A stretch of DNA of 63,545 nucleotides from a virus. The notes under the pieces are model-generated. The model had not been told where the DNA came from. It worked only from the letters and a program-made list of their open reading frames with translations, and ran no database searches. The DNA is taken from the IMG/VR virus record IMGVR_UViG_3300010155_000006, positions 1-63,545 of that record. One strand, 5' to 3'. Below, piece by piece: positions 1 to 63,545 of this stretch (the first letter of the stretch is position 1; every line of letters begins with the position of its first letter). Made by a program: the position numbers and the translations under genes.

Positions 1-1
1 A

Positions 2-235
2 GATTTAAAAACTTTATTGGATTCACGTTTCGTATTTTTTGACGAATACCTACCCATCCAAGGGAAAAACGGTAACAGGTCCAAAGGTCAAAGAGTTTTA
101 CAATTATTGAAAAAATATCCACAGGTAGAAGAAGTAGAATATTGGGAAGATAAAGATAAACATATTGTAGATGTGTTAGAAGTATTAGAAGCTTTTCCTG
201 ATATTAAAATTACAATTAATAAGATACCTACTTAA
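2..235 (+). CDS. HAD-like protein, 3' end only
   Basis: The reading frame is already open at the left edge, so this is the C-terminal part (about 77 codons) of a gene that begins outside the window; the internal TTG at 17 need not be a start. The tail has a run resembling the last motif of HAD-type phosphatases of the 'Swiss army knife RNA repair' kind: EYWEDKDKHI followed by a helix and a short strand. The catalytic Asp box would lie upstream and cannot be seen. It converges with, and overlaps by 8 bases, the minus-strand P-loop kinase. A kinase and a second HAD protein next door make nucleic-acid end processing a reasonable guess. Family assignment is tentative. Confidence 0.45.
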   Translation, partial: DLKTLLDSRFVFFDEYLPIQGKNGNRSKGQRVLQLLKKYPQVEEVEYWEDKDKHIVDVLEVLEAFPDIKITINKIPT

Positions 236-881
236 GTTGGTGTATCCTTCCCAACGGTCTTTCACTAGGAGCTAAATCCTGAGTATTATCAATTACCCAA
301 TAATTATCTACATACGGTACTAAATTTGAGACCGCATTTTTAACTTTATCGTGATAATCTACAACCATTTCTGGTGGTAAGCTCCTCTCTCTTTCTAGAT
401 TACGTTCTAAAGCTTTTTCTAATTCAGTTACGACATGAACAATACTCACAACGAATCCATTTTCTTCTGCAAGTTTTATAATATCTCTCATTACTTTTTC
501 TTGTCCTCCACCCGCGTCATAGACGATATTCGTAGGTTCTTTTCTTTCTGATTCTAAGAAGTTTTTTAGAAACTGAATGGTTACATTACGTGGGTCTGAA
601 GTGGTATGAGTTAAATCTAGAATTGTTTTATACCCCTCATCTGTGGATATAATTTCTTCCCAGTTATCTCCCCACAATTTTTTTGCTGTTGCTATTCTAT
701 AGTTGTCTACATTAAAGGGTTTAACATTATCTAAATCTATAAAATGTTGACTGACGTAACTTTTACCGGCACCGGGACCACCAGCTAAGATTACAAAATT
801 TCCATTAGGTTGGTTAAAGGTAACCATTTTGGCTTCCATTAACATTAAATTTTTCATTCTATTTATTTGTTCTACTAACAT
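228..881 (-). CDS. P-loop kinase (zeta-toxin / polynucleotide-kinase-like)
   Basis: Walker A motif AGGPGAGKS lies at residues 33-41 after a beta strand (NFVIL), with an Asp-rich segment (FNVDNYR) behind it, as in AAA_33 / zeta-toxin-type kinases that phosphorylate nucleic-acid ends, nucleosides or sugar nucleotides. A later strand-plus-helix segment with an Arg/Glu-rich patch (ERNLERERS) resembles a lid. Length, 217 aa, suits a single-domain kinase. The start is uncertain: the first ATG is at 881, but an internal ATG at 857 (MKNLMLMEA...) has a better A-rich leader and would give 209 aa. The gene is divergent from the HAD gene at 925 across a 43-base gap containing a perfect palindrome. The substrate cannot be told from sequence. 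Confidence 0.7.
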   Translation of the reverse strand: MLVEQINRMKNLMLMEAKMVTFNQPNGNFVILAGGPGAGKSYVSQHFIDLDNVKPFNVDNYRIATAKKLWGDNWEEIISTDEGYKTILDLTHTTSDPRNVTIQFLKNFLESERKEPTNIVYDAGGGQEKVMRDIIKLAEENGFVVSIVHVVTELEKALERNLERERSLPPEMVVDYHDKVKNAVSNLVPYVDNYWVIDNTQDLAPSERPLGRIHQLK

Positions 882-887
882 ACCTAC

Positions 888-905
888 TAATAAATATATT
901 TATTA
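888..905. promoter_or_regulatory. 18-bp perfect palindrome, possible divergent promoter
   Basis: TAATAAATATATTTATTA reads the same on both strands and sits between the divergent kinase and HAD genes. Each half contains the TATTTATT octamer that recurs upstream of other gene blocks in this window. On the + strand it ends 20 bases before the ATG at 925. On the - strand it ends 7 bases before the first ATG (881) or 31 bases before the internal ATG at 857. It could be a bidirectional promoter; an operator is the alternative. Confidence 0.45.
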
Positions 906-924
906 TGTAGAACTATAATTGTTT

Positions 925-1572
925 ATGAAAAGTTTAATAAAACAAATTCTTAATGAATACGCAAAAACTAATAGATTAATACTATTAGATGTGGACGACA
1001 CCCTCTTAAAACCAACTGGGGTATATATCTATAGAAAACTCCCAAGCGACTCACAGGAGGTAGCATTGACCCCTTACGAGTATGGTTTGGAACACGTAAC
1101 ACCCCAGACCAAACAATATTATGATTATCGGGATTTCATGAACCCTGAAAAAACTAGACAGTCCATTTCTCAGGCGGAACCCATAGTAGCAAATTTATCT
1201 ATAATGGATGATTTTATTAAACAAGGACATCAGATTGGGATTTTAACGGCGAGGTCCAACGAAGATATTGTCTATCAAGGTTTAAAGGATTGGTTGATGT
1301 ATAAAGATAAACGAGGAGACTTAATCCCCTTGGGGGACAGGTTAGAACGAGAGAATATATTTGCGGTTAATGATATTAAGAGGATGGAAGAGTTAGAAGC
1401 GGAAACGGATTACGAAAAAAAGGCTGAAGTCGTAGAAAGATTATTAACATCCTATGATGAGATTGTTTTTATAGACGATGATTTAAAGAATATTAAACAA
1501 ATGATGATACTAAAACGAGATTTACCAAAAGAATTAAGTAAAAAGTTATTTGTAATGCATGCTAAAGAATAA
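925..1572 (+). CDS. HAD-superfamily phosphatase
   Basis: The HAD nucleophile motif DVDDT is at residues 22-26 (Asp22 nucleophile, Asp24 general acid). Motif II is in the ILTARSNED segment and motif III in FIDDDLKNI near the C terminus, so all core HAD elements are present. Start is the ATG at 925 in preference to the TTG at 919. The N-terminal 12 residues (MKSLIKQILNEY) are basic and amphipathic and end in L-x-E, like capsid-targeting peptides cleaved by T4-type prohead proteases; the kinase next door has a similar beginning. HAD enzymes of this size remove phosphate from nucleotides, sugars or DNA/RNA 3' ends. With the adjacent kinase it may work on nucleic-acid ends; this is inference. Confidence 0.7.
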   Translation: MKSLIKQILNEYAKTNRLILLDVDDTLLKPTGVYIYRKLPSDSQEVALTPYEYGLEHVTPQTKQYYDYRDFMNPEKTRQSISQAEPIVANLSIMDDFIKQGHQIGILTARSNEDIVYQGLKDWLMYKDKRGDLIPLGDRLERENIFAVNDIKRMEELEAETDYEKKAEVVERLLTSYDEIVFIDDDLKNIKQMMILKRDLPKELSKKLFVMHAKE

Positions 1573-1580
1573 GCTTCTAA

Positions 1581-1588
1581 TATTTATA
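1581..1588 (+). promoter_or_regulatory. TATTTATA octamer in the 146-base gap before gp19
   Basis: TATTTATA lies 8 bases after the HAD gene stop. It is followed by AT-rich DNA with no convincing gene (only a 14-codon reading frame). It may be a second promoter for the tail-tube gene, 130 bases downstream, or chance in AT-rich sequence. The rest of the gap shows nothing else apart from the octamer at 1678. Confidence 0.25.
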
Positions 1589-1677
1589 TTATATAATGAA
1601 ATGGCTTTATGCTTTGCATATTATAATTTTAAAATATTAAAGTAAAGAGTTTTAATATCGGTTTTTGTAAAACTGTA

Positions 1678-2937: not shown

Positions 2938-3699
2938 ATGGACCCGAGCCACTATTCCGATATCAGCCAAATAAAAGTACCTTATGATGTAGTTAGTTTA
3001 CCATCACAGGGCATCTTTTATGTGAATAAAGTAAAAGAGGTAAAGATAACTTATCTTAATGCCTCGGATGAAAATTTGTTAAGTTCACCGAGTATTGTTA
3101 AATCAGGAAATTTAATTGATGGATTATTAAAGAGAAAAGTGGTAGGTGGGGAATTAAGAGTAGAGGAAATGTTAGACTGTGATAAACAGGCTCTTTTAAT
3201 ATTTTTACGAAACACCGCTTATGGACCCAGCTATGAATTCACTTTGACTGACCCAAAAACCAACACTAATTTTACCCACACACATGATTTAAGTAATGTA
3301 AAAATAAAAGATTTTACATTAAAAGCTGACAGTAATGGTGAATTTGATTATATATTTCCCCAGACGAAGAAAAAAATTAAGTTTAAATTTTTAAATTCAC
3401 AACAAGAGAATGAACTTACAAATTTAGACGAACAATACCACAATGGACAAATTACTCCAATAGCAACTCGCAGATTAGAACTTTTAATTCAAGAAATTGA
3501 AGGAGAAAGAGATTTAGGAAAACTTTCAGAAATGATACAAACGATGCCAATACGTGACTCACAGGAGTTTAAAAAATACGTTTGGAATAATCAACCGGGA
3601 CTAGATTTATCAGTTACGGTCAAAGCGCCATCAGGAGAAGATATCACGACATCAGTGGTGTTTGGCGCCCACTTTTTTCGCTCTTTCTTCGGAGTATAG
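2938..3699 (+). CDS. 26: Baseplate hub / tail assembly protein, T4 gp26-like
   Basis: Resembles the T4 base-plate family typified by gp26. The N terminus has the LPSQGIFYV box (families of this type carry LPS-G-YP), then a strand with KITYLNASDENLL, a short helical IDGLL, and DCDKQALLIFLRNTAYG, the D-R-L-L-R-YG motif. The C-terminal third is helical and charged. The gene lies between tail tube and tape measure, the place where tail-assembly chaperone genes are usually found. Its last 95 bases overlap an open +1 frame, and a TTT-TTT-CGC string seven codons before the stop could let ribosomes shift into it (see the frameshift feature). The unshifted product is 253 aa; the shifted product would be 310 aa. 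Confidence 0.7.
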   Translation: MDPSHYSDISQIKVPYDVVSLPSQGIFYVNKVKEVKITYLNASDENLLSSPSIVKSGNLIDGLLKRKVVGGELRVEEMLDCDKQALLIFLRNTAYGPSYEFTLTDPKTNTNFTHTHDLSNVKIKDFTLKADSNGEFDYIFPQTKKKIKFKFLNSQQENELTNLDEQYHNGQITPIATRRLELLIQEIEGERDLGKLSEMIQTMPIRDSQEFKKYVWNNQPGLDLSVTVKAPSGEDITTSVVFGAHFFRSFFGV

Positions 3700-11610: not shown

Positions 11611-14600
11611 ATGGCAAATGAGATTTTAAATGGTGACGATGTACTAGTTGAATTTTCAGAGAATAATATTCTTTTAGTTGACCCCAATCGCATATACCAA
11701 AATGGTCAAGCGGTTGATAGGGCAGTTAAACATGAAAATTTAACCATTTATGCCAATCTTAAAGCACGAGTAGTACCACGTAGTAAATTAATTAGTGGTG
11801 TAGGAATTGATAGTGAAACTCCAGAAGCATTTGTAGATGTGTTTGAAGGGGAAATAAATTTTTTAAAACCTGGTTCAAAAGAGTATATGACTACTGATTG
11901 GGCCGATAGTCAAACAGGTAAAGGATTTAATGTAGCAACAGGAGGGGGTAATTTAAATCAAAAAGTTTATACTACTTTAAAAGATATCAATACAGGTGAA
12001 GATGTAACAACAGAAAAAATTACTAATAAGTTAGATACCGAATCTTTTGGAATAGAAAGTATTTCAGTTACCCTAAACAGGTCATACACCCCAACAGTTC
12101 AAATAAATTTTGTTGATGTAAGAGGACAAACTCTTTTTGAACAAGGAAAAGATTCACCATATGCTGCTTTTTTCCAACTCCCCTACCCTCTTTTTAAATT
12201 AATTTTAAAGGGGTATTATGGGAAAGCCGTGGAGTACCAACTTATGTGTCAAAAGTTTAATGCTTCATTTGACGCTAGTAGTGGAAATTATATTGTTACC
12301 TGTTCTTTTATTGGTAGAATATCTGCTCTTCTTAATGACATAACATTACAAGAACTTAAAATGGCTCCTTATATGTTTTCAAAAACATATGAAATAAATG
12401 ATGGAGAAAGTGACCCCAGAACAGTAATAACCAGTAAAGGAAGACAAACACTACATGAGGTTTATACAGGATATAAAAATCTAGGCCTTGTGAGTCAAGG
12501 ATTACCTGAAATGACATTAGTAGAGTTAATTGAAAAGGTGGAAAAGCTTGAGACAGATATCCAACAAAACCTAAAAAAAGAAGACTTAGAGGGATTAGAT
12601 GATATTGATAATTATGAAAGAAATGTTTTAAATTATAGAAGAAAGATTTTAGAATCTGGTGGTTGGAAATATATCCATATGGAGCATAAATTAGACTCCC
12701 CACAACATTTTATTGTTAATCACAACACCCAACAAAAGTACTACAGATGGACTAAATTTTATCAAGACGATGTTGAAAAAAGAACTAATGCTTTAACAGA
12801 GTTAGATAAACACATAGAAACGTATAATAATTTATTATTAGATAATAAGACATTTGGTAAAAATGGTATTAGTGCTATTCCTATTAATATTACATTTAAT
12901 GATTTTTTAGCTCCCCCAAGTGACCTTATAGCGATGGGAGAAGCCCCAGACGCTCAATGGTTTATTTTTGACACACGGGCTACCACTTTTGGAGTTAAAA
13001 TCGGTAAAATAATTGCTCAGTTTAACGCTAAAAGAAATCAAATAGAACAGAAGATTACAGGAAAGATTAATAGCACAGTTATTGATATATTAGGATTTAA
13101 ACCCACCATTAGAAATTTATTTGCTATTTTAATAGCTCAAGCAGATACATTTTTAAGATTAATGGATGAAACCCACACTAAAGCATTTGCAGTAAGAGAT
13201 AGTCAGTATAGATTAGAGGCCGTAAAGGGAGATGGTAAATCCAATCAAAATACGGAACCACCAGAACAACCTTTTGTATATCCATGGCCCCATTATTATG
13301 TTAGAAAAGAAACTGAAGGAACCACTTCATTTGTAAGTACTTATCCCGGTGCATATATGGTACAAGATAAAATTATGTCCTATGATGCTACATTATGGCC
13401 TGAGGTAAATTTTGTGGAAGAGTACCTCAAAGCTCACACCGTAAAAGATAATGCAGTTGGTTCAGAATTCACCAACACTTCTATATCACAAAAATGGTTA
13501 CCCATAACATCATTTGATTTATTTGAAAATGATTTATATGCTATTGCTTCATATACTACTTTAAGTTATGAGATTTGGGACAGAGCCACCGTACATACTT
13601 TTTTTTCAGGCATTATTCCTAGAATTACCACCAATCAGGGAAGTGGTGTTTTGGATGCATGGGGAATGTTTGAAGCGTTAAATATAAAACAAAGAACTCA
13701 AGGATTTTTTCAAATACGAGAATTCTGGAAAAATCAAACTTTTAATTATAATACATTTTTAGACTATCTAAAAGAGTTAGCTCCCCTCACCGATTACCAA
13801 ATATTGTTAGAAGATAATTACAATACTCCTTATTTAAGAACAAAAATTCATAATAGTAGATTTTCTTTATTACCAGCAAGTCAATTTGAGGGGGTAATAT
13901 ATAGTGTAGATGATGCAGATATAAAAAATGAAGAAGCATTGCTTGAATCGGTTTTACAAGTTCGAGTGGATAGAGATAATATTTTGGAAACATATCCACT
14001 TTCAGATTTTCTTTCACCAAGTTCAAATATAGAACCATTCCCGTGGGTTAAAGAAAATTTAGCGGGGGGTCAATATATAAAGAGTTACGAAGAATTGAAT
14101 TATATTCACAATGGTGTTCAGTACGGTAAAGACCAAAAAATGTACACCTCCTTTCCTTATGAAGATACCTTACCCCTTAATGTAAGATTTTATTCTAATG
14201 CCCGTTGGGCAGTTAGTAAACTTCGTGAAACTTGGGATGCTATCGGACTAAAAAAAGTGAAAATTGAGGAATTCCAACTGTATTACCAAGATATCCTTAC
14301 CAAGCGAACCACTGAAACCGACCATAACACTAACCTTAAATATAAAGAGGTATATGATAACTATATTTTAAAAGAAAATTTCGTACACGGCAAGAATCAT
14401 AATATGTTTTTAACAGAAGGACCTCTTAATTACGGTAATCAATATTCGGGCAATACCACCCCTACTCAGGTTACATCTATTTTAAATACTCCATATTTTA
14501 TTAATGGGTTGATTCAAGGAATTAATAATGAAATTAATGATTCACCAACCCCATATGTGGCAGCATCCTATTTGTTTTTAAATTCTCTACCTTTAGGTAC

Positions 14601-17600
14601 TCTAAGAGAAAAAACTATTGAGAGTATTGGAAATATTAGTGTATATGGAGACTATATTGCTAAAGTTTTAAATCAAGTTTCTGCAGTTCATCCACTTCCC
14701 TACGCATGGATTTTAAAATACGGGAGTATTTGGCACCGGTATAAGAATTTCGTTAAAACAGGAACTGACATTTTGACAGATGTGTGGGATAATTATGATG
14801 CTGGTACCTATTTTAATGCAGATAATGGTATTTCTCACACCTATAATTTAGATGTTGGACCCAGTAATAGTTCTATCACCTTTGGAGGACAATGGTATAT
14901 TGGAGGTAATTTTACAAAAATGAATGTGGGTGTTTATCCTGAATTAAATAATTTAATAAATTATTTTATCACAGGCCGTTTATTGTACAATGGAACCAAC
15001 ATTACAGGAGCACCATTAACTAGTAACGAAATTAATGCATTTATTAGTAATGATGCATTAATATTAAAAGAAGCAAATGAATTAATCATTAATACCGAAC
15101 CCAATACTTTAAATCAAGATATGAATTGTAGTTTCTGGTATGGTTATTATGATTTAAGTAGAGATGGTTATTTAACGGGTTATAGTCCTACACAATATTA
15201 TTTATTCCCTTCTTGTGGTGGAATGAAAACACAACAACTCCAATTTGAGACTAAAGAATCAATAGATTTACTTAATAATCCTAGTGTGCATAATGGGGCA
15301 ATTCGTTTAGCGTGGGGAATGTCCAACTACGGGTTTTTCCAACATAATAAAAATACTTTTCCTTCTCCTACTCAATATTTCAAAGTTATAGATTCAGAAG
15401 AAAATGAACAATATGCTTTTAATATTACTAACCAAAGTGAATACGCAAGTATTGAGGAATTATTTGATATTTTTACTCCCGACATATTAGACGTATTTGA
15501 ACAATATTTTTTAAATTTTTCTGAAAAAGATTCAGCAGTTTCATTTTTACTTCCAGGGTTTTCCGGAACTACACACGCCGACGGAGTATTACCTGACGAT
15601 AATTATGCTCCTACCTCTGCTACATTAGGGGTGACTAACTATAAAAGTTTCCAAAGCATTATTAGAAATATATTGGTGGTGGACCACAGTGCGGTGAAGG
15701 ATGCTACAGACAACACCCAACTTAGTTTTAATTTAGGTGAAGCACAACTGACTAAAATTAATTCCGTACTTACTCATTTTTTGAGTGAAAAAATGGCTTT
15801 TAATTTTTACAACCCAAAAGATATTGACCCACGAGTATTAAGAAGTTTTGCGGGTAGTGCAAAGTTTTATGAGTTTGGACCAACAGACGGCGTAGAAGAC
15901 CGTACCACAAATACCTATACGGGCAATTTACCTCCAGAAATATCGTTTAGCCAATCACAACTCGATTATCCATTAGAGTGGGAAACACTTAAATTAGAGG
16001 TGGGATTTTATACGGACCCAGTTTACCCAACCCAAACATTTACTATTCCTTATTTTTCAGGTGGTTTACCCGTAGGGACTATACAAGTTACTGGAACAAG
16101 TCTTACCACTTCAGCATTATCCTATAGTGGAAATAGTTCTCTAGTAACTGATTTCTTTAGGGAAATGAATATAGCTTTTACTATACCCAACATTAAAGCC
16201 TTGAGAAAGGTAATTAGAATGTATGTTACCCAACGGATTAATAATAAAGCGTTGGTTCCTGGTTATTCTGGTGATACCACTGTTCAGACTACTTTTAGAA
16301 CCCAAGTCCAAACACTAATGGACAAATTAGACACCGCACAAGGAGATTTATTAGAACAATTATTTGAAGATATGAGAAAGATATTTCCAGACATTAGAGA
16401 GACACAAGCAGATGAAGCTAAAAAAAATACTGCAATGCAAACTGATGAAAATAAGTTGGAACAATATCTTTTGTTTAAAGCATTTAACGATAAATGGATT
16501 GGGGGTGAGGATTATAGTAGCAAATTTTTGTTTAAAGATTTTTTATTTTTTGATGTTGCCAATAGGGATATTGGAGACGTGGCTATTTTAGATACAGATA
16601 GAATTAAAGAGTTTAATAATCCAGACAACGCAAAGCTAAGTTTATTACATATTATTAGTAGAATGTTACAAGGTAACTTTTTTAATTTTTTAGCACTCCC
16701 TAGTTATATCAATTTTTATGGTATAACCTCTACGGGAAATAATACCATACCAAAACTTAGTACTAGAGAAGAAGCAAATGCATTATTTGGTACTCATTTA
16801 GAAGTAGATTTTTTAGATTCTTCACCAAAATTTTTATGTCAATATGTGGGGGAAACCTCGAATCAGTTAGCAGACTTGAATGAGAAAACAAAATATAATA
16901 ACGATTCTTTTAATATAGGTAGAACAGCAGACAACCCTCTATTTTCTAATTGTTACGACCCACAGAGATGCAATAAAGTAGTAGCTTTTGCCGTAGATTT
17001 TGGAATACAAAGTCAAGGGATTTTTAAAGGGATTAGTTTGGACACCACAGAATTTCAAAATACATCTGAGTCTTATGGTATATTAGAGGCAATGGCTCAA
17101 TCCACCAACGATAAAAGTATAAAATCACAAGGGTTAAATTTATTTAATGTATATAAGTCAAGGTCTTACACTTGTAAAATTGAGGCTATGGGAAATGTCT
17201 GTATCCAACCCACAATGTATTTTAGTTTAAGACATGTTCCAATGTTTAATGGTCCATATATGATATTAAGTGTAGAACATAACATTCAACCTAATACGAT
17301 GACTACAACATTTACGGGGGTTAGAGTACCATTCCATCAATTACCAGCAATTGAAAATTTAGTGGGAAAAGTGAATAAATCTTTTATTAATAAGATAAAA
17401 ACAAAAATAAAGAATGAGGAGGCTCTTGCTACACAAGGTGGGTTTGACGCGGAAAATGAAGATGAAGAAAAAGTACATGCTGCTACTACTTGGCCTGCGG
17501 CTAATAGCGATAAAGTAAAAATGTTGATTATTCATGTAACTGGAGGATTGGATTATGGTTCGAACCCCGTAGAACGAATTAATAAACAACATAAAGATAG

Positions 17601-18246
17601 AGGTTTTGCGGGGATTGGATATCATTATGTAATTTCTAGAGGTACTGGAGGGAGCAGGCCAGATGGTACATTATATGCTGCACGTCCCGACACATATATT
17701 GGGGCACATGTCCGGGGTAAAAATACAGAATCTTTGGGTATTTCTATGATAGCGGACTGTGCAAAAATAGGGTATTATGACAGTAAAGGTGATTATGCAA
17801 CAACTGCACAAAAAACAACTTTGGAATGGGTATTATTAGCTCTTTTATTTAAAAAAAGAATTTTTTACCTTAAAAAGGTTAGTGGGAAATTAGAATTATA
17901 TATTAGGCCTATTAATATTACCGTAACGGACCCTGAAAATATAAGTGACAGTACTAGAGGAGTAACATCTGCTATATGGTATAAAGTAATAAAAGGACAT
18001 AATGATTTTACTAATAGAAAAAGATGTCCCTGTTTTAAAGTACAAACAGCATTAAATGGTACATTCGGCATTAATCTAAGAAAGAATTTAGCAATTATTA
18101 TACAAGAAATAAACATGTCATTAGACAATGCAAGTATAAATAATGAGGCACAAAGTATTGCCTTTAGTAAACTAGGGTCAGGACGAACTTTAGTGGCGAC
18201 ACCATACCAACCAGATAAAGAGGGAGATATTAAGACTTTGGCCTAA
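11611..18246 (+). CDS. Giant baseplate hub-like protein with C-terminal amidase
   Basis: A 2211-aa protein. Residues 145-260 (ESISVTLNRSYTPTVQINFVD, PLFKLILKGYYG, YIVTCSFIGRISALL) look like a tail hub core. Residues about 1785-1915 (FGIQSQGIFKGISLD, KSRSYTCKIEAMGN, PMFNGPYMILSVEHNI) resemble the C-terminal strands of hub proteins of the gp27/late-control type. Residues about 1955-2170 form an amidase_2 / T7-lysozyme-type domain: LIIHVTGG with His1975, GIGYHYVIS with His2005, GAHVRGKN, GISM, and KGHNDF (His2130) with Cys2139 in KRCPCF. His1975, His2130 and Cys2139 match the zinc triad. It would cut the MurNAc-L-Ala bond during infection, the job done in T4 by the lysozyme domain of gp5. The middle 1400 residues are not assignable. 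Confidence 0.75.
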   Translation: MANEILNGDDVLVEFSENNILLVDPNRIYQNGQAVDRAVKHENLTIYANLKARVVPRSKLISGVGIDSETPEAFVDVFEGEINFLKPGSKEYMTTDWADSQTGKGFNVATGGGNLNQKVYTTLKDINTGEDVTTEKITNKLDTESFGIESISVTLNRSYTPTVQINFVDVRGQTLFEQGKDSPYAAFFQLPYPLFKLILKGYYGKAVEYQLMCQKFNASFDASSGNYIVTCSFIGRISALLNDITLQELKMAPYMFSKTYEINDGESDPRTVITSKGRQTLHEVYTGYKNLGLVSQGLPEMTLVELIEKVEKLETDIQQNLKKEDLEGLDDIDNYERNVLNYRRKILESGGWKYIHMEHKLDSPQHFIVNHNTQQKYYRWTKFYQDDVEKRTNALTELDKHIETYNNLLLDNKTFGKNGISAIPINITFNDFLAPPSDLIAMGEAPDAQWFIFDTRATTFGVKIGKIIAQFNAKRNQIEQKITGKINSTVIDILGFKPTIRNLFAILIAQADTFLRLMDETHTKAFAVRDSQYRLEAVKGDGKSNQNTEPPEQPFVYPWPHYYVRKETEGTTSFVSTYPGAYMVQDKIMSYDATLWPEVNFVEEYLKAHTVKDNAVGSEFTNTSISQKWLPITSFDLFENDLYAIASYTTLSYEIWDRATVHTFFSGIIPRITTNQGSGVLDAWGMFEALNIKQRTQGFFQIREFWKNQTFNYNTFLDYLKELAPLTDYQILLEDNYNTPYLRTKIHNSRFSLLPASQFEGVIYSVDDADIKNEEALLESVLQVRVDRDNILETYPLSDFLSPSSNIEPFPWVKENLAGGQYIKSYEELNYIHNGVQYGKDQKMYTSFPYEDTLPLNVRFYSNARWAVSKLRETWDAIGLKKVKIEEFQLYYQDILTKRTTETDHNTNLKYKEVYDNYILKENFVHGKNHNMFLTEGPLNYGNQYSGNTTPTQVTSILNTPYFINGLIQGINNEINDSPTPYVAASYLFLNSLPLGTLREKTIESIGNISVYGDYIAKVLNQVSAVHPLPYAWILKYGSIWHRYKNFVKTGTDILTDVWDNYDAGTYFNADNGISHTYNLDVGPSNSSITFGGQWYIGGNFTKMNVGVYPELNNLINYFITGRLLYNGTNITGAPLTSNEINAFISNDALILKEANELIINTEPNTLNQDMNCSFWYGYYDLSRDGYLTGYSPTQYYLFPSCGGMKTQQLQFETKESIDLLNNPSVHNGAIRLAWGMSNYGFFQHNKNTFPSPTQYFKVIDSEENEQYAFNITNQSEYASIEELFDIFTPDILDVFEQYFLNFSEKDSAVSFLLPGFSGTTHADGVLPDDNYAPTSATLGVTNYKSFQSIIRNILVVDHSAVKDATDNTQLSFNLGEAQLTKINSVLTHFLSEKMAFNFYNPKDIDPRVLRSFAGSAKFYEFGPTDGVEDRTTNTYTGNLPPEISFSQSQLDYPLEWETLKLEVGFYTDPVYPTQTFTIPYFSGGLPVGTIQVTGTSLTTSALSYSGNSSLVTDFFREMNIAFTIPNIKALRKVIRMYVTQRINNKALVPGYSGDTTVQTTFRTQVQTLMDKLDTAQGDLLEQLFEDMRKIFPDIRETQADEAKKNTAMQTDENKLEQYLLFKAFNDKWIGGEDYSSKFLFKDFLFFDVANRDIGDVAILDTDRIKEFNNPDNAKLSLLHIISRMLQGNFFNFLALPSYINFYGITSTGNNTIPKLSTREEANALFGTHLEVDFLDSSPKFLCQYVGETSNQLADLNEKTKYNNDSFNIGRTADNPLFSNCYDPQRCNKVVAFAVDFGIQSQGIFKGISLDTTEFQNTSESYGILEAMAQSTNDKSIKSQGLNLFNVYKSRSYTCKIEAMGNVCIQPTMYFSLRHVPMFNGPYMILSVEHNIQPNTMTTTFTGVRVPFHQLPAIENLVGKVNKSFINKIKTKIKNEEALATQGGFDAENEDEEKVHAATTWPAANSDKVKMLIIHVTGGLDYGSNPVERINKQHKDRGFAGIGYHYVISRGTGGSRPDGTLYAARPDTYIGAHVRGKNTESLGISMIADCAKIGYYDSKGDYATTAQKTTLEWVLLALLFKKRIFYLKKVSGKLELYIRPINITVTDPENISDSTRGVTSAIWYKVIKGHNDFTNRKRCPCFKVQTALNGTFGINLRKNLAIIIQEINMSLDNASINNEAQSIAFSKLGSGRTLVATPYQPDKEGDIKTLA

Positions 18247-19397: not shown

Positions 19398-20252
19398 ATG
19401 AGCACTTTAGATGCAGTTTTAAAACAATACGAACAAAATCAAGTTAACGGTAGCTCTACAAATAATATTAGTAGAGAAGAAAGATTAAAAAAATATTTTG
19501 CTACCTTTTTACCGAAAGGTGAAACAGAGGGGGAAAAAATTATACGCATATTACCCACTATAGATGGGAGTTCCCCATTTAAAGAAGTCTATTATCATGA
19601 AGTACAGATAGATGGAAAATGGACTAAATTATTAGACCCCGGTAAAAATGGTGATGGTACACCTACAGGTGAAAGAAGTCCGTTAAATGAAGTTGAAGAA
19701 GCTTTAAAAATGACAGGCAATGAGAAAGATAAAGAAATTGCAAGACAATATAGGTCTAAAAAATTCTATATTGTAAAAGTTATTGATAGAGAAAACGAGG
19801 AAGATGGTGTGAAATTTTGGAGATTTAAGTGGAACTATAAAGGTGACGGTGTTATCGATAAAATAATTCCCATTTTTCAAAAAAGAGGTGACATCACCGA
19901 TACAAAAGAAGGTAGAGATTTAACTTTAGTTCTTAAATCAGTTCCCCTTCCTAGTGGAAAAGGAACTTACACCGTAGTTTCTATGGTAATGGCTGAAGAC
20001 CCAAGTACACTTACTTCAGATAAAGCTAACCTTAAAGAATGGACTGAAAATACTGAGACATGGCAAGATGTGTACGCCAAAAAACCAGTTGAGTATTTAG
20101 AAGCAATTGCTAGAGGTGAAACTCCAGTGTGGGATAGTCAATTAAAGAAGTATGTTTACACTGATTCAACAGAAACAGTTACCGTAGATGGTGGTGGTAC
20201 TGTTGTAGACCCACAAAAAGATTCCCCAACAGACAACGATTTACCATTTTAA
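19398..20252 (+). CDS. 32: Single-stranded DNA-binding protein, gp32-like
   Basis: Coats ssDNA during replication and recombination and recruits partners through its acidic tail. At 284 aa it is close to T4 gp32 (301 aa). The N terminus is basic (ISREERLKKYF); the OB-fold core includes KIIRILPTIDGSSPFKEVYYHEV, FYIVKVIDREN and FWRFKWNYKG; the C terminus is acidic and ends in DNDLPF (279-284), the classic SSB-type interaction tail. The protein contains no cysteine, so the zinc knuckle of T4 gp32 is absent and its place is taken by a Gly/Pro-rich loop (DPGKNGDGTPTGER). It is the first gene of the replication block, 12 bases ahead of uvsX. Confidence 0.85.
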   Translation: MSTLDAVLKQYEQNQVNGSSTNNISREERLKKYFATFLPKGETEGEKIIRILPTIDGSSPFKEVYYHEVQIDGKWTKLLDPGKNGDGTPTGERSPLNEVEEALKMTGNEKDKEIARQYRSKKFYIVKVIDRENEEDGVKFWRFKWNYKGDGVIDKIIPIFQKRGDITDTKEGRDLTLVLKSVPLPSGKGTYTVVSMVMAEDPSTLTSDKANLKEWTENTETWQDVYAKKPVEYLEAIARGETPVWDSQLKKYVYTDSTETVTVDGGGTVVDPQKDSPTDNDLPF

Positions 20253-20264: not shown

Positions 20265-21275
20265 ATGGCTATAAAGAAGAAAAACTTTAAAGACATTAAA
20301 GCAAAATTTTCCAAAAAAGCCTCCTTCAAACCAGACAGATTTTTTGATTTGGGGGAAGCTTTTTTAGATGCTACAGGCATTCCCGGTCCAGCGATGGGAC
20401 ATATCAATATGTTTTTAGGACATACCGATACTGGAAAAACCACCGCATTAGTTAAAACTGCAAGTGATGCTCAAAAGAAAGGAATTCTTCCTGTTTTTAT
20501 TATAACTGAACAAAAATGGGATTTTAGTCATGCCAAATTATTGGGTCTAGAATGTGAAGAAAGTGTAGATAAAGAGACTGGTGAAATAGAGTGGGACGGA
20601 TTTTTTCTATTTAATAACGATTTTCATTATATAGAACAAATTACCGATTATATTAATGAACTAATAGACGCACAAGATAAGGGTGAGGTGGATTATGATT
20701 TATTATTTCTGTGGGATTCAGTTGGGTCAGTTCCGTGTAAAATGACTTTTGATGGTAAGGGTGGTAAAATGCATAATGCGAGTACATTAGCTGATAAAAT
20801 TGGCATGGGAATAAACCAACGAATTACTGGGTCCAGAAAAGACACATCAAAGTTTACAAATACCTTATTGATTGTTAACCAACCTTGGGTAGAGTTACCA
20901 GATAATCCTTTTGGGCAACCTAAAATAAAGGCTAAAGGTGGAGAATCATTATGGTTAAATTCTACTTTAGTATTTTTATTTGGGAATCAAAAAAATGCTG
21001 GAATAACAAAAATAACTGCTACCAAAGATAAACGTAAAGTTAAATTTGCAAGCCGTACAAAGGTATCAATTTTAAAGAATCATGTTAATGGTTTGGGATA
21101 TGAAGATGGTAAAATTATGGTTACACCACACGGGTTTTTAAAAGGGAAAGACCAAACCGAAGAAAAAAAATCAATTGAAATATATAAAGAAGAAAACGCA
21201 ACCTATTGGAAAGAAATTATTGGTTCTGATGGTGATTACAACTTAGCAGTAGAAGATACTGGTGAATTATTTTAA
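20265..21275 (+). CDS. uvsX: UvsX/RecA-like recombinase
   Basis: ATP-dependent strand-exchange protein that starts recombination-dependent replication and repair. Walker A is GHTDTGKTT near residue 52; Walker B is in YDLLFLWDSVGS; the DNA-binding loop region carries GMGINQRITGSRKD; NTLLIVNQPWVE matches the RecA-core strand after Walker B; KAKGGESLWL is the motif before the C-terminal strands. At 336 aa it is slightly shorter than T4 UvsX (391 aa). It follows the gp32-like gene as a natural functional partner. The short acidic end (VEDTGELF) is typical of phage UvsX and may contact partners. Confidence 0.9.
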   Translation: MAIKKKNFKDIKAKFSKKASFKPDRFFDLGEAFLDATGIPGPAMGHINMFLGHTDTGKTTALVKTASDAQKKGILPVFIITEQKWDFSHAKLLGLECEESVDKETGEIEWDGFFLFNNDFHYIEQITDYINELIDAQDKGEVDYDLLFLWDSVGSVPCKMTFDGKGGKMHNASTLADKIGMGINQRITGSRKDTSKFTNTLLIVNQPWVELPDNPFGQPKIKAKGGESLWLNSTLVFLFGNQKNAGITKITATKDKRKVKFASRTKVSILKNHVNGLGYEDGKIMVTPHGFLKGKDQTEEKKSIEIYKEENATYWKEIIGSDGDYNLAVEDTGELF

Positions 21276-21291
21276 ATTAAAAAAACAAATT

Positions 21292-21726
21292 ATGAAACAA
21301 GTAGAAAAAGGAAACAAAATAAAAGTTCATTATACCGGAACTTTAAATGACGGAAATAAGTTTGATAGTTCCCACGACAGAGGAGATACTTTAAATTTTG
21401 AAGTAGGAGCTGGTCAAATGATTAAAGGATTTGATGAAGCGGTAGTTGGAATGGAAACTGGAGAAACTAAAAAAATTAATTTAAAACCAACCGATGCTTA
21501 TGGGGATGTTAATCCTAAAGCATTGACTGAGGTTCCTACTAACTCATTTCCTACGGATTTTAATCCTAAAGTAGATGAAATGGTACAAGGAAGTACTATA
21601 GATGGTAAACCAATAATTGCCAAGGTTAAAGAATTAAAAGAATCAACAATTGTTTTAGATTTAAATCATCCCTTAGCTGGTCAAGAACTTAATTTTGAAA
21701 TAGAATTAGTAGAAATAGAAAAATAG
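21292..21726 (+). CDS. FKBP-type peptidyl-prolyl isomerase (SlyD-like)
   Basis: Catalyses cis-trans isomerisation of X-Pro bonds. At 144 aa it has the SlyD/FkpB layout: VHYTGTLNDGNKFDSS (12-27), GAGQMIKGFDEAVVGM (39-54), ETKKINLKPTDAYGD (58-72), then an insert-in-flap region and the closing LDLNHPLAGQELNFEIELV, the signature HPLAG of SlyD-type enzymes. It lacks the His-rich metal-binding tail. Start is the ATG at 21292, preceded by AAAAAACAAATT; a GTG at 21262 would overlap uvsX and is less likely. The gene lies within a DNA-replication cluster, where a folding factor is unexpected. A role in folding virion proteins is plausible, but not shown by the sequence. Confidence 0.9.
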   Translation: MKQVEKGNKIKVHYTGTLNDGNKFDSSHDRGDTLNFEVGAGQMIKGFDEAVVGMETGETKKINLKPTDAYGDVNPKALTEVPTNSFPTDFNPKVDEMVQGSTIDGKPIIAKVKELKESTIVLDLNHPLAGQELNFEIELVEIEK

Positions 21727-23249: not shown

Positions 23250-24626
23250 ATGAAGGAAAGTAAAAGTTTTGGGTACTTGGGGCATTCGTTCCAGCTCAAA
23301 TTAATGAATCAATTAATTACGGATAAAAAATTCGCTAATAATATAGTGGATGTTATAGACCCGAAGTATTTTGACAACCAATATTTTAAGTTAATTTCTC
23401 AAATGGTAAAAGAATATCATGAGAATTATGATACCCCTCCGAGCTTTGATGCGTTGGACCAATTGACACGATTAGAGGTATCCTCAGAAATGGCAAAAAG
23501 AACTATTTTTGATATGTTAGCTGATATTAGAGATTGTACATTAGAAGACCATTTATGGATTCAAGAAAAAGCTTTAAAATTCTGTAAACAACAAGAATTA
23601 AAAAAAGCAATTAATAAGGTTAATAAAATATTAGAAAAAGGAGATTTTGAATCCTATGATAGGTGTGAGGAATATATTAGAGATGCGATACAAGTAGGAG
23701 AAAATGGGGACGAATCTAGGGATGTATTTAGTGAGTTAGATGAAGTTTTAATTGATGATTTTAGACATCCTATCCCTTTAGGTATTACTGGAATAGATAA
23801 TTTAATGGATGGTGGATTAGCTAAAGGAGAAATTGGGGTTTTTCTTGCACCTACAGGGGTGGGGAAAACAACTGTTCTTACTAAAGTAGCTAATACCGCT
23901 TATAATTTAGGATTTAATGTGTTACAAATCTTTTTTGAGGATAACCCTAAAGTAATTCAACGAAAACACCTTACATGTTGGACAAAGATTCCCGCAATAG
24001 AACAAGCAAGTAGAAAGTCAGAAGTATTGAGTAAACTTAAACCATTTAGAGAGGGACGAGGTAAACTTATCTTAGAAAAATTACCATCCGATAGTATCAC
24101 TATCCCAAAAATAAAAAATAGAATTAGAAAATTAGTAGCGGAAGGTAATAAGTTTGATATGGTAGTATTAGATTATATTGATTGTATATTACCCGATAAA
24201 CATTTTAATGAAAGTTGGCAAGGTGAAGGGTTGGTAATGAGACAGTTTGAAAGTATGTGTAATGAGTTAGATGTAGTCGGTTGGACAGCCTCACAAGGTA
24301 ATCGTACTTCAATAAGTGCGGAAGTGGTAACGACAGATATGATTGGCGGGTCTATTAAAAAAGCACAGGTAGGGCATGTAATTATTACTGTAGCAAAAAC
24401 TTTACAACAAAAAGAAATGGGTCTTGCGACTATTGCTATTACTAAGTCTAGAGTAGGGAAAGATGGTATTGTTTTTCAGAATTGTACTTTTAATAATGAA
24501 ACCTTAGAAATAGATACGGAACAAGCACAAACACTATTAGATTTAGAACACCAACGAGAAGAACAGAACGCTGAAAGAGTAAGACAGGCACTTGAAAGGC
24601 GAAGACAAACAATAAATAACCAATAA
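23250..24626 (+). CDS. 41: Replicative DNA helicase, gp41/DnaB-like
   Basis: Ring helicase that unwinds the fork 5'-3'. The N-terminal helical domain (residues 1-155) is followed by the RecA-type motor: PLGITGIDNLMDGGLAKGE, Walker A APTGVGKTT near residue 200, the FFEDNPK segment, Walker B DMVVLDYIDC, and TASQGNRTS with the DMIGGSIKKAQVGHVIITV tract, ending with TKSRVGKDGI (the arginine-finger region). At 458 aa it is close to T4 gp41 (475 aa). The C terminus is a basic helix rich in Arg, Glu and Gln. The primase partner begins at the right end of the window, away from this gene. Confidence 0.9.
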   Translation: MKESKSFGYLGHSFQLKLMNQLITDKKFANNIVDVIDPKYFDNQYFKLISQMVKEYHENYDTPPSFDALDQLTRLEVSSEMAKRTIFDMLADIRDCTLEDHLWIQEKALKFCKQQELKKAINKVNKILEKGDFESYDRCEEYIRDAIQVGENGDESRDVFSELDEVLIDDFRHPIPLGITGIDNLMDGGLAKGEIGVFLAPTGVGKTTVLTKVANTAYNLGFNVLQIFFEDNPKVIQRKHLTCWTKIPAIEQASRKSEVLSKLKPFREGRGKLILEKLPSDSITIPKIKNRIRKLVAEGNKFDMVVLDYIDCILPDKHFNESWQGEGLVMRQFESMCNELDVVGWTASQGNRTSISAEVVTTDMIGGSIKKAQVGHVIITVAKTLQQKEMGLATIAITKSRVGKDGIVFQNCTFNNETLEIDTEQAQTLLDLEHQREEQNAERVRQALERRRQTINNQ

Positions 24627-24639: not shown

Positions 24640-26547
24640 ATGGAGATTTCAAGTAAAATTTTATCAGACATTACCGTATACATGAAGTATGCAAAATATT
24701 ATCCAGAACTTAATAGAAGAGAAACGTGGGCAGAATTAGTTACACGTAATAAGAACATGCACCTCAAAAAATTTCCACACTTAAAGGAAGAAATTGAAAA
24801 GAATTATAAATTTGTCTACGATAAAAAAGTACTCCCCTCTATGAGAAGTATGCAATTTGGGGGAAAACCCATTGAGATATCCCCAAATAGAATCTATAAC
24901 TGTGCTTATATGCCTATAGACCATATCGATACCTTTAGTGAATGTATGTTTTTATTGTTAGGTGGAACAGGTGTGGGGTATTCTGTACAGAAACATCATG
25001 TGGAAAAATTACCCCCAATAAACAAACCATACCCAAAACGTAAAAGGAGATTTTTAATTGGGGATTCTATTGAAGGCTGGGCGGATTCTATTAAAGTATT
25101 GATAAAATCGTATTTAAATGGAAAAGGGTCCAGAATTGAGTTTGATTATTCGGATATTAGACCTAAAGGAGCGAGATTAGTTACTTCTGGTGGTAAAGCA
25201 CCGGGACCCCAACCATTAAAAGAATGTTTAGTTAAAATAGAAGGATTATTAAGTGAAAAAGAAGATGGAGATAAACTTTCTCCAATTGAGGTCCATGATA
25301 TTGTATGTTATATTGCGGATGCAGTTTTAGCGGGAGGTATTAGACGGGCAGCACTTATTTCTTTATTTAGTGCAGATGATACTGAAATGATAGGATGTAA
25401 GTCAGGGTCTTGGTGGGAATTAAATCCACAAAGAGGCAGGGCAAACAATTCAGTGGTATTAATGAGACATAAAATCACCAAGGAATTTTTTCTAGATGTA
25501 TGGAAACGTGTAGAGTTAAGTGGAGCGGGAGAACCAGGAATTTATTTTTCCAATGATAAAGACTGGGGAACCAATCCTTGTTGTGAAATTGCTTTACGAC
25601 CCTACCAATTTTGTAATTTATGTGAAGTAAATGTTTCAGATATTGAAACACAAGAAGACCTGAATGAACGAGTTAAGGTAGCTACATTTATAGGAACCTT
25701 ACAAGCGGGTTATACTGAATTTCATTATTTAAGAGAGGTATGGCAAGAAACTACAGAAAAAGAAGCTTTAATTGGTATTAGTATGACGGGTATAGGTTCG
25801 GGAAGTGTATTAGGATATGATATGTCAAAAGCCGCCAGTTTAGTTAAAAGAGAAAATACTAGAGTATCTAAATTACTGGATATAAATCCCGCAGCTAGAT
25901 GTACAACAGTTAAACCAGCAGGGACCACTTCATTAACATTAGGAACGTCATCAGGTATTCATGCTTGGCATAATGAGTATTATATTAGAAGAATGAGGGT
26001 AGGAAAAAATGAATCCATTTATAATTATTTGGTAACTTACCACCCGGAGTTAATAGAAGATGAATATTTTAGGCCACACGATACTGCAGTTATTTCTGTA
26101 CCCCAAAAAGCACCAGAAGGTGCAATTATGAGAACCGAATCTCCATTTCAGTTACTAGAAAGAGTTAAAAAAGTATCCAAAGGGTGGGTTAAAGCAGGAC
26201 ATCGAAAGGGTTCTAACACCCACAATGTATCTGCTACAGTTTCACTCGAAGAAGCAGATTGGGAATTAGCTGGAGAATGGATGTGGGAAAATAGAGAATA
26301 TTATAATGGGTTATCTGTCTTACCTTACAATGGAGGTTCCTATAAACAAGCTCCTTTTGAGGACTGCACTAAAGAAACTTATGAAAAGATGTTAAAAAGT
26401 TTAACGGAGGTTGACTTAACAAAAATTATAGAGTTAGACGATAACACTAACTTAACAGGAGAACTTGCATGTGCGGGAGGACAATGTGAAATAGATGTAG
26501 GTGCCACCTATATTAAAAAAAATAAAGAAATTAGTGAAATTACATAA
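24640..26547 (+). CDS. nrdJ: Class II (adenosylcobalamin-dependent) ribonucleotide reductase
   Basis: Makes deoxyribonucleotides from ribonucleotides with a cobalamin-generated thiyl radical, without oxygen. At 635 aa it is a compact monomeric enzyme like the lactobacillus ribonucleoside-triphosphate reductase. Seen: NRIYNCAYMPI at the first active-site Cys; GGTGVGYSVQ; NPCCEIALRPYQFCNL with the N-x-C-x-E triad (Asn312, Cys314, Glu316); CTTVKPAGTTSLTLGTSSGIH, the PAGT-SG-H segment; and a C-terminal redox pair Cys611/Cys616 in ACAGGQCEI (C-x4-C). No nrdA/nrdB pair is in the window. It ends inside the following zinc-ribbon gene. Use of a B12 enzyme implies a host that makes or imports cobalamin. 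Confidence 0.9.
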   Translation: MEISSKILSDITVYMKYAKYYPELNRRETWAELVTRNKNMHLKKFPHLKEEIEKNYKFVYDKKVLPSMRSMQFGGKPIEISPNRIYNCAYMPIDHIDTFSECMFLLLGGTGVGYSVQKHHVEKLPPINKPYPKRKRRFLIGDSIEGWADSIKVLIKSYLNGKGSRIEFDYSDIRPKGARLVTSGGKAPGPQPLKECLVKIEGLLSEKEDGDKLSPIEVHDIVCYIADAVLAGGIRRAALISLFSADDTEMIGCKSGSWWELNPQRGRANNSVVLMRHKITKEFFLDVWKRVELSGAGEPGIYFSNDKDWGTNPCCEIALRPYQFCNLCEVNVSDIETQEDLNERVKVATFIGTLQAGYTEFHYLREVWQETTEKEALIGISMTGIGSGSVLGYDMSKAASLVKRENTRVSKLLDINPAARCTTVKPAGTTSLTLGTSSGIHAWHNEYYIRRMRVGKNESIYNYLVTYHPELIEDEYFRPHDTAVISVPQKAPEGAIMRTESPFQLLERVKKVSKGWVKAGHRKGSNTHNVSATVSLEEADWELAGEWMWENREYYNGLSVLPYNGGSYKQAPFEDCTKETYEKMLKSLTEVDLTKIIELDDNTNLTGELACAGGQCEIDVGATYIKKNKEISEIT

Positions 26548-26963: not shown

Positions 26964-27422
26964 ATGCCCGAGTTTGGAACATATGGGATAGATTTTCCTT
27001 TTCAAGATAGTGACTTAGGATATTATTTACAATTAACGGAAACTCCAGAAGAAGAAATTAAAGCCAATTTAATTCATCTTTTACTGACGAGAAAAGGCAC
27101 TAGATATTTTTTACCAGATTTTGGTACTCGACTTTATGAATATATATTTGAGCCGTTAGATGCACCCACTTTTGATTCTATTGAGGCAGAAATTAGAGAA
27201 CAGGTGGATAAATATATCCCTAACTTAAAATTAAACACTGTTACCGTAACCCCAGCGTTAGATACCGAAGACTCACCCGGTACGATTGTAGCGGAAAATG
27301 ACCCTAGAGTATATAGGATAGCGGGAGAGGGAACAAAAGAACATACGGCTAAGGTGAGGTTAGATTATACCATAACTAGTAACGCATTTGAAACTAGAGA
27401 TTTTATTATAATTAATTTATAA
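26964..27422 (+). CDS. 25: Baseplate wedge protein, gp25-like
   Basis: Fits the gp25 / GPW family, the wedge component that starts sheath polymerisation. At 152 aa (T4 gp25 is 132 aa) it has the family pattern: GIDFPFQDSD, then helix EEEIKANLIHLLLTRKGTRYFLPDFG followed by TRLYEYIFEP (the T-x-x-G-x-R-x-x-x-P-x-F-G ... L-x-x-x-I-F-E-P box), a helix with IREQVDKYIPN and the strands around LKLNTVTVTP. It is immediately followed by a gp6-like gene, the usual gp25-gp6 order. Calling it lysozyme-like would be misleading, since no lysozyme activity is known for the conserved wedge version. Confidence 0.9.
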   Translation: MPEFGTYGIDFPFQDSDLGYYLQLTETPEEEIKANLIHLLLTRKGTRYFLPDFGTRLYEYIFEPLDAPTFDSIEAEIREQVDKYIPNLKLNTVTVTPALDTEDSPGTIVAENDPRVYRIAGEGTKEHTAKVRLDYTITSNAFETRDFIIINL

Positions 27423-61089: not shown

Positions 61090-61115
61090 TAAAACAAAGA
61101 TAAAAATATAGAGAA

Positions 61116-62243
61116 ATGGATTTTAAACCAGTAACATTAAAAACAGTAGATTCTGAAATAATACCTTTTGGAACCCTAAACCCCAACTTTAACGGGTATA
61201 ATCAAATAAGTGGTTCCAATCTGAAATTTACAGTGGCTCAAAGAGACCCAAATAACGGAAGACCTTTTTCTAACTTATATTCTTCTTTTGGACTTCCGGC
61301 TGCTCCCTTTGAGGTAAATGCGTGGGATACCGAATGGGGAAATAATAGTGCATTGACAACTATTGATAACGCACTTAATGTAGTGGTGGTAGAAATTCCA
61401 AAAAATACGTATGGGGAATTGATAGATGGAAGGACTTTCCGACTTAAATTACCTTTAGTGGGTGGTGTTAGTGTCAATTGTTATAGTTCATATTACGCTT
61501 CTTATAATGCTTCGAGTGACCCGAGTATTGAGGCAGAAAGATTTGGACATACCTCAGCCTTAAGTTTAGGACTTACCCCAGATATTGAAACACCGAGTAC
61601 TAATGTATCATTTTTATTTGCAGATACTTTTGGTACTCCAGTAAATGGTGGAAGTTGGTCCGCTGGTTATACCACTAGTTCTCCACCAGCTGGTTATCCT
61701 GACGCGACTTCATTCTTTAGTTTTACTCAAGATAAAGTAGTTGCCGTTCCTAGTGATGGTGGAAGTGGAGTAGATTATCCTATAGGCATATGTTATTTAG
61801 ATAAAGGATTTATTGTATTAACTAGTTCTGCCCTTACTCAAAGCATAGATTGGTCTGCCTCTACCGCGTCCGGTTGTATACCAGCAGGAACTGGTTGTAC
61901 AGGAACTACTGTAATATATAGTGCTATCACCCAAGATTATTTTGCACCCAGTGCTGCAGATTTAACCTATTATAGTTTTGAAAAACAATGGGTACTAAGC
62001 GTTCAATGTGATGCAATAACAGATGAATTTTATTTAAGTAGTAATCCTACCGCTGCACCTTTAAATCCTATAGTCACTTCTAATGGAGAATATGATTTAA
62101 GTAGTGTTAATAAACCCGTTTACATTACTGAAATTGGGTTGTATGATTCTAATGGAGATATGCTAGCAATAGCTAAACCCGATAGGCCAATTGAAAAATA
62201 TAGGAATCAAACACAAACTTTTGACTTGAAATTTAGATTTTAA
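61116..62243 (+). CDS. Tail fibre-like protein with TEIGLYD C-terminal motif
   Basis: 375 aa. The C terminus ITEIGLYDSNGDMLAIAKPD then PIEKYRNQTQTFDLKFRF is homologous to the end of the 818-aa protein, and to the conserved ITE-x-G-x-x-D-x-x-G-x-L-x-A-x-x motif of P2 gpH-like fibres. The N terminus (PFGTLNPNFNGYNQISGSN) and Gly/Ser/Ala-rich middle (SYYASYNASSDPSIEAER) look like fibre sequence. No Cys-rich module except one pair (GCIPAGTGC). It shares a base with the resolvase ATG (TAATG). Probably the distal or chaperone-like component of the fibre set. Confidence 0.6.
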   Translation: MDFKPVTLKTVDSEIIPFGTLNPNFNGYNQISGSNLKFTVAQRDPNNGRPFSNLYSSFGLPAAPFEVNAWDTEWGNNSALTTIDNALNVVVVEIPKNTYGELIDGRTFRLKLPLVGGVSVNCYSSYYASYNASSDPSIEAERFGHTSALSLGLTPDIETPSTNVSFLFADTFGTPVNGGSWSAGYTTSSPPAGYPDATSFFSFTQDKVVAVPSDGGSGVDYPIGICYLDKGFIVLTSSALTQSIDWSASTASGCIPAGTGCTGTTVIYSAITQDYFAPSAADLTYYSFEKQWVLSVQCDAITDEFYLSSNPTAAPLNPIVTSNGEYDLSSVNKPVYITEIGLYDSNGDMLAIAKPDRPIEKYRNQTQTFDLKFRF

Positions 62244-62836
62244 TGGAATTAAAAAATGAACCCAAAGTACTGGGATTAGATATCTCAACCAAGACTATTG
62301 GTTGGGCTCTTTTTGGGCTCAAGAGTCAAAAATTATTAGAATTAACCCATTTTTCCCCTAGAGTTAGTCCGCGCCCAGAAGATAAAATAGAAGAACACCT
62401 GAAGAAAGCGGCGGCTTTTCAAGAAAAATTAGAAGAAGTAAAAGGATTGGGTGTTATTCGTGTAATCATTGAAGAACCTCTTTTAACTTCTAATAATCTT
62501 TATACGGTAGGGACATTATTACGATACAATTCAATGATTGTTAAAACAGTTTACGATATCCTTAATGTAGTTCCTACTTTTATTTCTACCTACAATTCTA
62601 GAAAATATGCACATTCTTCATTGTATGGTTACAATGACAAAGGTAAAAAAGTATTATTTGGTGGATTTCCTAAAGACACTAATAAAAAAGTAGCAGTCTG
62701 GGAACAAGTTAAAAAATTAGAACCACATATTGTTTGGCCTTATACTAAAAATGATACCCCCAAAAAAGAATGTTTTGATATGGCAGATGCTTACACATGT
62801 GTAAGAGGTCATATGTTACAAAATGAGTTGTGGTAA
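62243..62836 (+). CDS. RuvC-like Holliday junction resolvase
   Basis: 197 aa with the RNase H-like fold of RuvC-type nucleases. First strand VLGLDISTKTIGWALF with Asp13; VIRVIIEEPL with Glu77/Glu78 in the second catalytic strand; a helix with TLLRYNSMIVKTVYDIL; and the C-terminal FDMADAYTC (Asp179, Asp182). Asp13, Glu77 or 78, Asp179 and Asp182 form the expected metal-binding set. It would cut branched DNA in replication intermediates before packaging, the job of T4 endonuclease VII, which is an unrelated fold. It begins in the stop codon of the fibre gene and is followed by the primase gene. Confidence 0.8.
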   Translation: MELKNEPKVLGLDISTKTIGWALFGLKSQKLLELTHFSPRVSPRPEDKIEEHLKKAAAFQEKLEEVKGLGVIRVIIEEPLLTSNNLYTVGTLLRYNSMIVKTVYDILNVVPTFISTYNSRKYAHSSLYGYNDKGKKVLFGGFPKDTNKKVAVWEQVKKLEPHIVWPYTKNDTPKKECFDMADAYTCVRGHMLQNELW

Positions 62837-62870
62837 TTGACATTCTCACTTAATAAAATTATATTTAGGT

Positions 62871-63545
62871 GTGGAAGACTATCAACTTATTATAGAAATA
62901 CTAGAAGAGGTATTTGGTGACATTCACCAACATTACCCCCATAAAGGTCAGATTTCATTTGATTGCCCCGTTTGTTCTTATGATATTAAAGGATTAGAAA
63001 GTGGAGACCGCAAAGGTAATTTAGAAATTAATTATCAAATGGGGGTTTATAAATGTTGGGCTTGTACCGAGACCCACGACACCCATGGATATATTCCTAA
63101 ACTTATCAGAAAATGGGGAGATAAAACCCAACTACGTAATTTTGAATTAGTATGTCCTGATGAATTTCTTCAGGTAGAGAAAAAATTTAATAAAAATATT
63201 AAATTACCATATGGTTTTACTAAATTAACAGACGCTTCACCTTATGATTTAAATGCAAAACAAGCATTTAATTATCTAAGAAAAAGAAACATAGGAGAAG
63301 AGCTAATAAAAAAATATGGAATTGGTTTTACCATTCAAGGAGAATATAAATTTAGAATAATAGTACCGACTTACACTTCAGAAGGGACCCTCCAGTATTT
63401 TGTAGGAAGAAGTTATATTAATGCTAAACTTAAATATAAAAATCCTGAACAGGAAAAAAGTAAAATCATTTTTAATGAAGAGAAAATTGATTGGGAAAAA
63501 GATATATTTTTAGTAGAAGGTGTATTTGATATGTTCTTTTTACCT
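62871..63545 (+). CDS. DNA primase (zinc finger and TOPRIM), 5' part
   Basis: Open to the right edge, so the C-terminal part lies outside. From the GTG at 62871 the 225 visible codons show a zinc finger, CPVC (Cys32, Cys35) and CWAC (Cys62, Cys65), and at the far end FLVEGVFDMFF, the TOPRIM E-G-x-x-D element (Glu216, Asp220). Together they identify a DnaG-type phage primase that lays RNA primers with the gp41-like helicase. The frame runs back in-phase to a stop at 62838 with no ATG: GTG at 62871 is the first normal start, though residues encoded just upstream (IKLYLG) look natural, so an ATA start at 62853 is conceivable. Confidence 0.85.
   Translation, partial: MEDYQLIIEILEEVFGDIHQHYPHKGQISFDCPVCSYDIKGLESGDRKGNLEINYQMGVYKCWACTETHDTHGYIPKLIRKWGDKTQLRNFELVCPDEFLQVEKKFNKNIKLPYGFTKLTDASPYDLNAKQAFNYLRKRNIGEELIKKYGIGFTIQGEYKFRIIVPTYTSEGTLQYFVGRSYINAKLKYKNPEQEKSKIIFNEEKIDWEKDIFLVEGVFDMFFLP

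Follow-up and report, generated by a model that had tools for sequence, protein, structure and literature searches.

The 63,545-bp virus contig IMGVR_UViG_3300010155_000006, which we analyzed from end to end (positions 1 to 63,545) and call the window below, contains no GATC at all. We think it very likely that the phage from which it derives, a T4-like myovirus that is probably virulent and probably infects Bacteroidota, has purged this tetranucleotide because Type II restriction enzymes cut unmodified GATC. The exact count is 0, where 204 sites are expected from base composition, 141 from a first-order Markov model and, under a second-order model, 127 when one strand is counted or 145 when both are. 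A preliminary description of this DNA had reported the absence and put the expectation near 200; the absence is real, and the expectation agrees with base composition, with Markov values lying between 127 and 145. It had also called the gap specific to GATC, and when all tetramers are counted and compared with the Markov expectation GATC is indeed the only one at zero. The other palindromes it listed as present (GTAC, CATG, AGCT, TTAA and GGCC) do all occur, though CATG and GGCC are reduced to about half of the first-order expectation (115/196 and 50/101, respectively), as are TCGA (43/86) and GCGC (8/18); GCGC is the next-lowest palindrome, with 8 seen versus 27 expected. GATC is thus missing relative to composition and codon models alike, and the loss is palindrome-specific and confined to GATC. 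The window has 2,791 positions that are one substitution short of GATC, so new sites must keep arising and being removed.

The codons carry a clear trace of this removal. When synonymous codons were shuffled 200 times with the proteins and the overall codon totals held fixed, the coding sequence was expected to contain 156 GATCs (minimum 133 in the 200 shuffles) where none is seen, and the resulting z of -18.5 is the most extreme among all tetramers. All three reading frames are adapted to the loss. Asp before a codon that starts with C is GAC in 134 of 134 cases, compared with 223 of 1,095 elsewhere in the window, so the earlier remark that Asp-Pro is written GAC-CCN wherever checked is not only correct but extends to any C-starting codon. 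Following a codon that ends in G, Ile never uses ATC (0/119, versus 132/1,230 elsewhere), and Ser after xGA is always AGY (35/35) and never TCN (0/35), although TCN accounts for 721 of 1,273 Ser codons elsewhere. GATC was thus very likely lost by synonymous and near-neutral substitutions, with GAC in place of GAT before C, ATT or ATA in place of ATC after G, and AGY in place of TCN after GA; since sites in all three frames can be removed without changing a protein, the purge can reach exactly zero. The same codon pattern refutes the idea that a sequencing, library or assembly artefact removed the sites. The metagenomic origin of the window makes this a natural concern, but it has almost no probability given that compensation in the codons leaves the proteins intact, that the zero state recurs across independent metagenomes as well as in the genome of an isolate, and that GATC is retained in close relatives whose metagenomes are comparable.

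The virus record is no longer than this contig, so the window is a fragment. Its predicted genes include, all on the forward strand, those for a myovirus-type tail tube protein (1719-2207), a baseplate hub-like protein (2938-3699), a gp32-like single-strand DNA-binding protein (19398-20252), a UvsX/RecA-like recombinase (20265-21275), a DnaB-like replicative helicase (23250-24626), a B12-dependent, NrdJ-like ribonucleotide reductase (24640-26547, phrog_367) and a gp25-like baseplate wedge subunit (26964-27422), and a 5'-3' exonuclease is encoded as well. The tail tube, baseplate, gp32-like, UvsX/RecA-like, exonuclease, DnaB-like and NrdJ genes mark it, by sequence resemblance, as a piece of a T4-like myovirus, and the adjacency of DnaB and NrdJ is common to the window and Microcystis phage Mel-JY01. 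Two further genes may be mentioned: the product of 11611-18246, which is 2,211 residues long, has an amidase/endolysin-like domain close to the C-terminal end, and an FKBP-type peptidyl-prolyl isomerase gene (21262-21726) lies within the replication region. Shine-Dalgarno motifs precede 6% of the window's genes versus a third of those of the cyanophage Mel-JY01, and their scarcity is Bacteroidota-like; the window has no tRNA genes that might serve as a host clue. Relatives with 79% and 64% NrdJ identity were found in a Flavobacteriia MAG bin and an Altibacter (Flavobacteriaceae) bin, respectively. A host among the Bacteroidota is therefore probable but only suggested, because other relatives sit in unrelated bins (Maricaulis and a Prochlorococcus single cell).

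NrdJ was the marker for finding and placing relatives of the window (L numbers denote loci and G numbers records). The approximately 150 related loci are strongly bimodal, with GATC either exactly zero or near normal: about half of the NrdJ-found loci have no GATC where 10 to 70 are expected, most of the others have it at 0.5 to 1.1 of expectation, and few are intermediate. Twenty-four whole records (1.41 Mb, about 3,500 expected sites) contain zero GATC; these were picked as the zero class, and their weight lies in the gap between the classes. The complete, 190,001-bp genome of Mel-JY01 (PP395634; L159-L162) has none where the second-order model predicts 357 on one strand or 395 on two, and the jumbo record G030 (317,259 bp; L232-L247) has none where about 950 are expected. 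Mapped onto a 140-row tree of NrdJ, the zero state implies 11 changes, 8 of them forced by well-supported branches; that is, GATC avoidance has been switched on or off many times in these related phages, at least 8 to 11 times. Within the NrdJ alignment itself, GATC occupies 238 of 3,268 cells, spread over 54 columns, in the keepers and 0 of 3,165 in the GATC-null relatives. Simple swapping of NrdJ as the switch can be rejected, as the zero or normal state spans whole records of differing architecture. Record G005 (L121-L126) has 18 GATCs versus 267 expected, scattered along its length; this is perhaps a purge under way or one that is decaying.

A purge that is both absolute and lineage-wide is also what a self-imposed constraint would produce, as when a phage encodes its own GATC nuclease, for example for degradation of host DNA, and is not cut itself because it contains no GATC. 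Several of the records are fragments from which such a gene could be missed, but we consider this explanation improbable. No MutH/Sau3AI-family protein scores above the cut-off in 39 records, the complete Mel-JY01 genome included, and the only protein families restricted to null genomes and shared by distant ones are glycosyltransferase-like and tail-like.

A phage nuclease for GATC would also leave unexplained the loss of CCGG, CTAG, GGWCC and other sites, for the relatives lack further Type II sites too, in sets that differ from lineage to lineage. CCGG is absent from G030 (0 seen/216 expected), G031 (L248-L251; 0/59), G033 (0/65) and G017 (0/25), TTTAAA is absent from G005 (0/157) and G008 (L133-L135; 0/77), and Mel-JY01 is at 0 for CTAG, GGWCC, RCATGY, TTCGAA, GAATTC, AAGCTT, CCATGG and more. 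The simplest thing with the shape of such lineage-specific loss is a set of restriction specificities. We note in passing that Mel-JY01 has five matches to N6/N4 methyltransferases, and that G031 has 0 TGWCA where 179 are expected, a motif for which we know of no enzyme.

Escape from GATC-cutting restriction, as first proposed for the window, is thus the best supported explanation, both in the all-or-none state of the relatives and in their loss of other Type II sites, with the causal step itself an inference. Enzymes of the DpnII/MboI or Sau3AI type in the bacteria entered would cut unmodified GATC, and each new GATC would cost infections and so be removed. For the lineage of the window, the role of a host restriction enzyme as the selecting agent is inferred, as is the host group. 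We searched 240 flavobacterial species genomes, from the family of the Flavobacteriia bin above, and found the DpnII family (PF04556) in 6 and the MutH/Sau3AI family (PF02976) in 7, together 13/240 or about 5%, which is a lower bound since it covers two families only. One PF02976 protein matches the solved Sau3AI at 6.5e-66 and lies above the cut-off of the curated Sau3AI model, and five others are Sau3AI-like in length (453 to 508 residues). In L320 a Dam-family methyltransferase, a DpnII-family enzyme and a second methyltransferase lie side by side in a DpnM-DpnII-DpnA-like arrangement. Judging from such matches, complete DpnII and Sau3AI enzymes are present, if patchily, in flavobacterial genomes, and bacteria equipped in this way are plausible hosts. 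Several observations weigh against restriction. No more than about 5% of the genomes searched have the two enzyme families (again a lower bound), although this frequency would presumably be enough for strong selection in large phage populations; keepers with no detected modification gene need enzyme-free hosts or unseen protection; and a D12 methyltransferase encoded by G030, if it methylates GATC, would be redundant in a genome that has no such site.

The same flavobacterial genomes bear on two further explanations. GATC is the MutH site, and nicking of unmethylated GATC by MutH during methyl-directed mismatch repair could select against it; such counterselection in enterobacterial phages is reportedly an old proposal (McClelland; Deschavanne and Radman). 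Here we regard it as very improbable, since the flavobacterial family member examined is Sau3AI and not MutH (the five others being of Sau3AI-like length), Mel-JY01 infects a cyanobacterium, and the relatives' losses are not limited to GATC but include other restriction palindromes. Alternatively, host Dam-type methylation might mark GATC and thereby make it costly, through a DpnI-like Type IV nuclease or through regulatory interference. D12 methyltransferases are present in 36 of the 240 flavobacterial genomes and DpnI-type enzymes do exist, yet we give this explanation little credence; it is inseparable here from ordinary Type II restriction, and the many non-Dam sites lost in the relatives point to ordinary Type II enzymes.

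If restriction is the cause, relatives whose guanines are protected by 7-deazaguanine modification would be freed from the pressure and would keep GATC. In several GATC-keeping relatives, FolE, QueD and QueE genes follow NrdJ within a few kilobases, and some of these relatives encode a TGT/DpdA-like protein; a QueC gene is present in G010, the only one of 20 records searched to have it, and in L313. FolE/QueD/QueE genes are near NrdJ in 20 loci, all of which keep GATC, and this Que module is present in 0 of the 33 null loci in which at least 3 kb downstream of NrdJ is covered. (We scored 21 of the 140 tree rows as carriers but discounted L319, whose match shares 30% identity with QueE and comes from a high-GC Opitutaceae contig.) Palindromes other than GATC are also less depleted in the carriers, with a median 6-mer ratio of 0.94 versus 0.83 or 0.84 (p 0.0004 to 0.0017, kinship ignored). 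Counted by lineage, the association between Que genes and GATC has p values of 0.03 to 0.10 for a comparison chosen after seeing the data and with few lineages; in an independent-pairs test the informative pairs all agree, but at about 2.4 of 8 they are too few for significance. One keeper nested among null relatives, L005, is covered over 12.3 kb and shows no modification gene there. D12 (Dam-like) methyltransferases, all below the curated Dam cut-off, are present in the keepers G004, G041 and G042 and in the GATC-low G043; we dropped them as a general cause of GATC keeping, since the zero-GATC G030 carries one too.

The window itself carries a gene of another modification type. On the reverse strand between the tail tube and baseplate hub genes, the product of 2237-2878 matches the family of the phage Mu Mom protein over its full length (PF25680, positions 1-202 of 202, 4.9e-30; phrog_1384), and so is predicted to be a Mom-like DNA modification protein. 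PF25680 genes are present in the window, L069/L073, L223 and G023, all of them GATC-null or low. Paired Mom-like genes lie right after NrdJ in L073 (3648-5140) and L223 (7508-9261), near the site that 7-deazaguanine genes occupy in relatives. The association by lineage (p 0.01 to 0.08) was noticed after looking and involves few lineages, and for these same reasons the Que and Mom associations are suggestive leads only. The Mu Mom target context is said to be C/G-A-C/G-N-C/T, which excludes the A of GATC, so if the predicted protein has the Mu specificity it could not protect GATC. A possible, though rather unlikely, extension is that the modification module decides which sites are deleted, 7-deazaguanine carriers keeping GATC and Mom-like carriers purging exactly GATC. 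If true, 7-deazaguanine would shield every G while the Mom-like adenine mark would miss the A of GATC, and the window, with its Mom-like gene and GATC as its sole missing site, would illustrate the Mom-like type cleanly.

Site purging is already known from other phages, and the window is a further case. The 140-kb genome of Staphylococcus phage K has no GATC, which is attributed to Sau3A avoidance (PMC6532042); there as here GATC is wholly absent over a large myovirus sequence and the absence is ascribed to GATC restriction by the host. The family of the window differs in consisting of aquatic phages unrelated to phage K in which the state has been gained or lost repeatedly, in reaching 317 kb, and in that full removal often extends to a second palindrome in the window's relatives. 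Rusinov et al. (2018, PMC6286503) found GATC under-represented in every one of 46 phages infecting hosts with a GATC enzyme, Type II palindromes (almost) completely eliminated in about one tenth of viral genomes, and no site avoidance in hydroxymethylase phages. In the present family, by comparison, the 7-deazaguanine module appears as the alternative to avoidance among close kin, and the sampling is dense enough for switching to show. Protection of phage DNA by the 7-deazaguanine route is established (Hutinet et al. 2019, PMC6884629), and its genes (FolE, QueD, QueE, in some cases QueC, and TGT/DpdA-like), as genes alone, are those of our GATC-keeping relatives; the window lacks the module. 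What is added here is therefore the dense switching within a family, the large size that GATC-free genomes reach, and 7-deazaguanine modification as an apparent alternative to purging. Purging has usually been shown phage by phage, and here a single family is all-or-none, with exact zeros in records as large as 317 kb and, plausibly, a trade-off between purging and DNA modification. Such a family offers natural replicates on the strength and constancy of restriction in nature. Which sites a phage lineage lacks could also read out the enzymes it meets, a potential host clue for uncultured phages.
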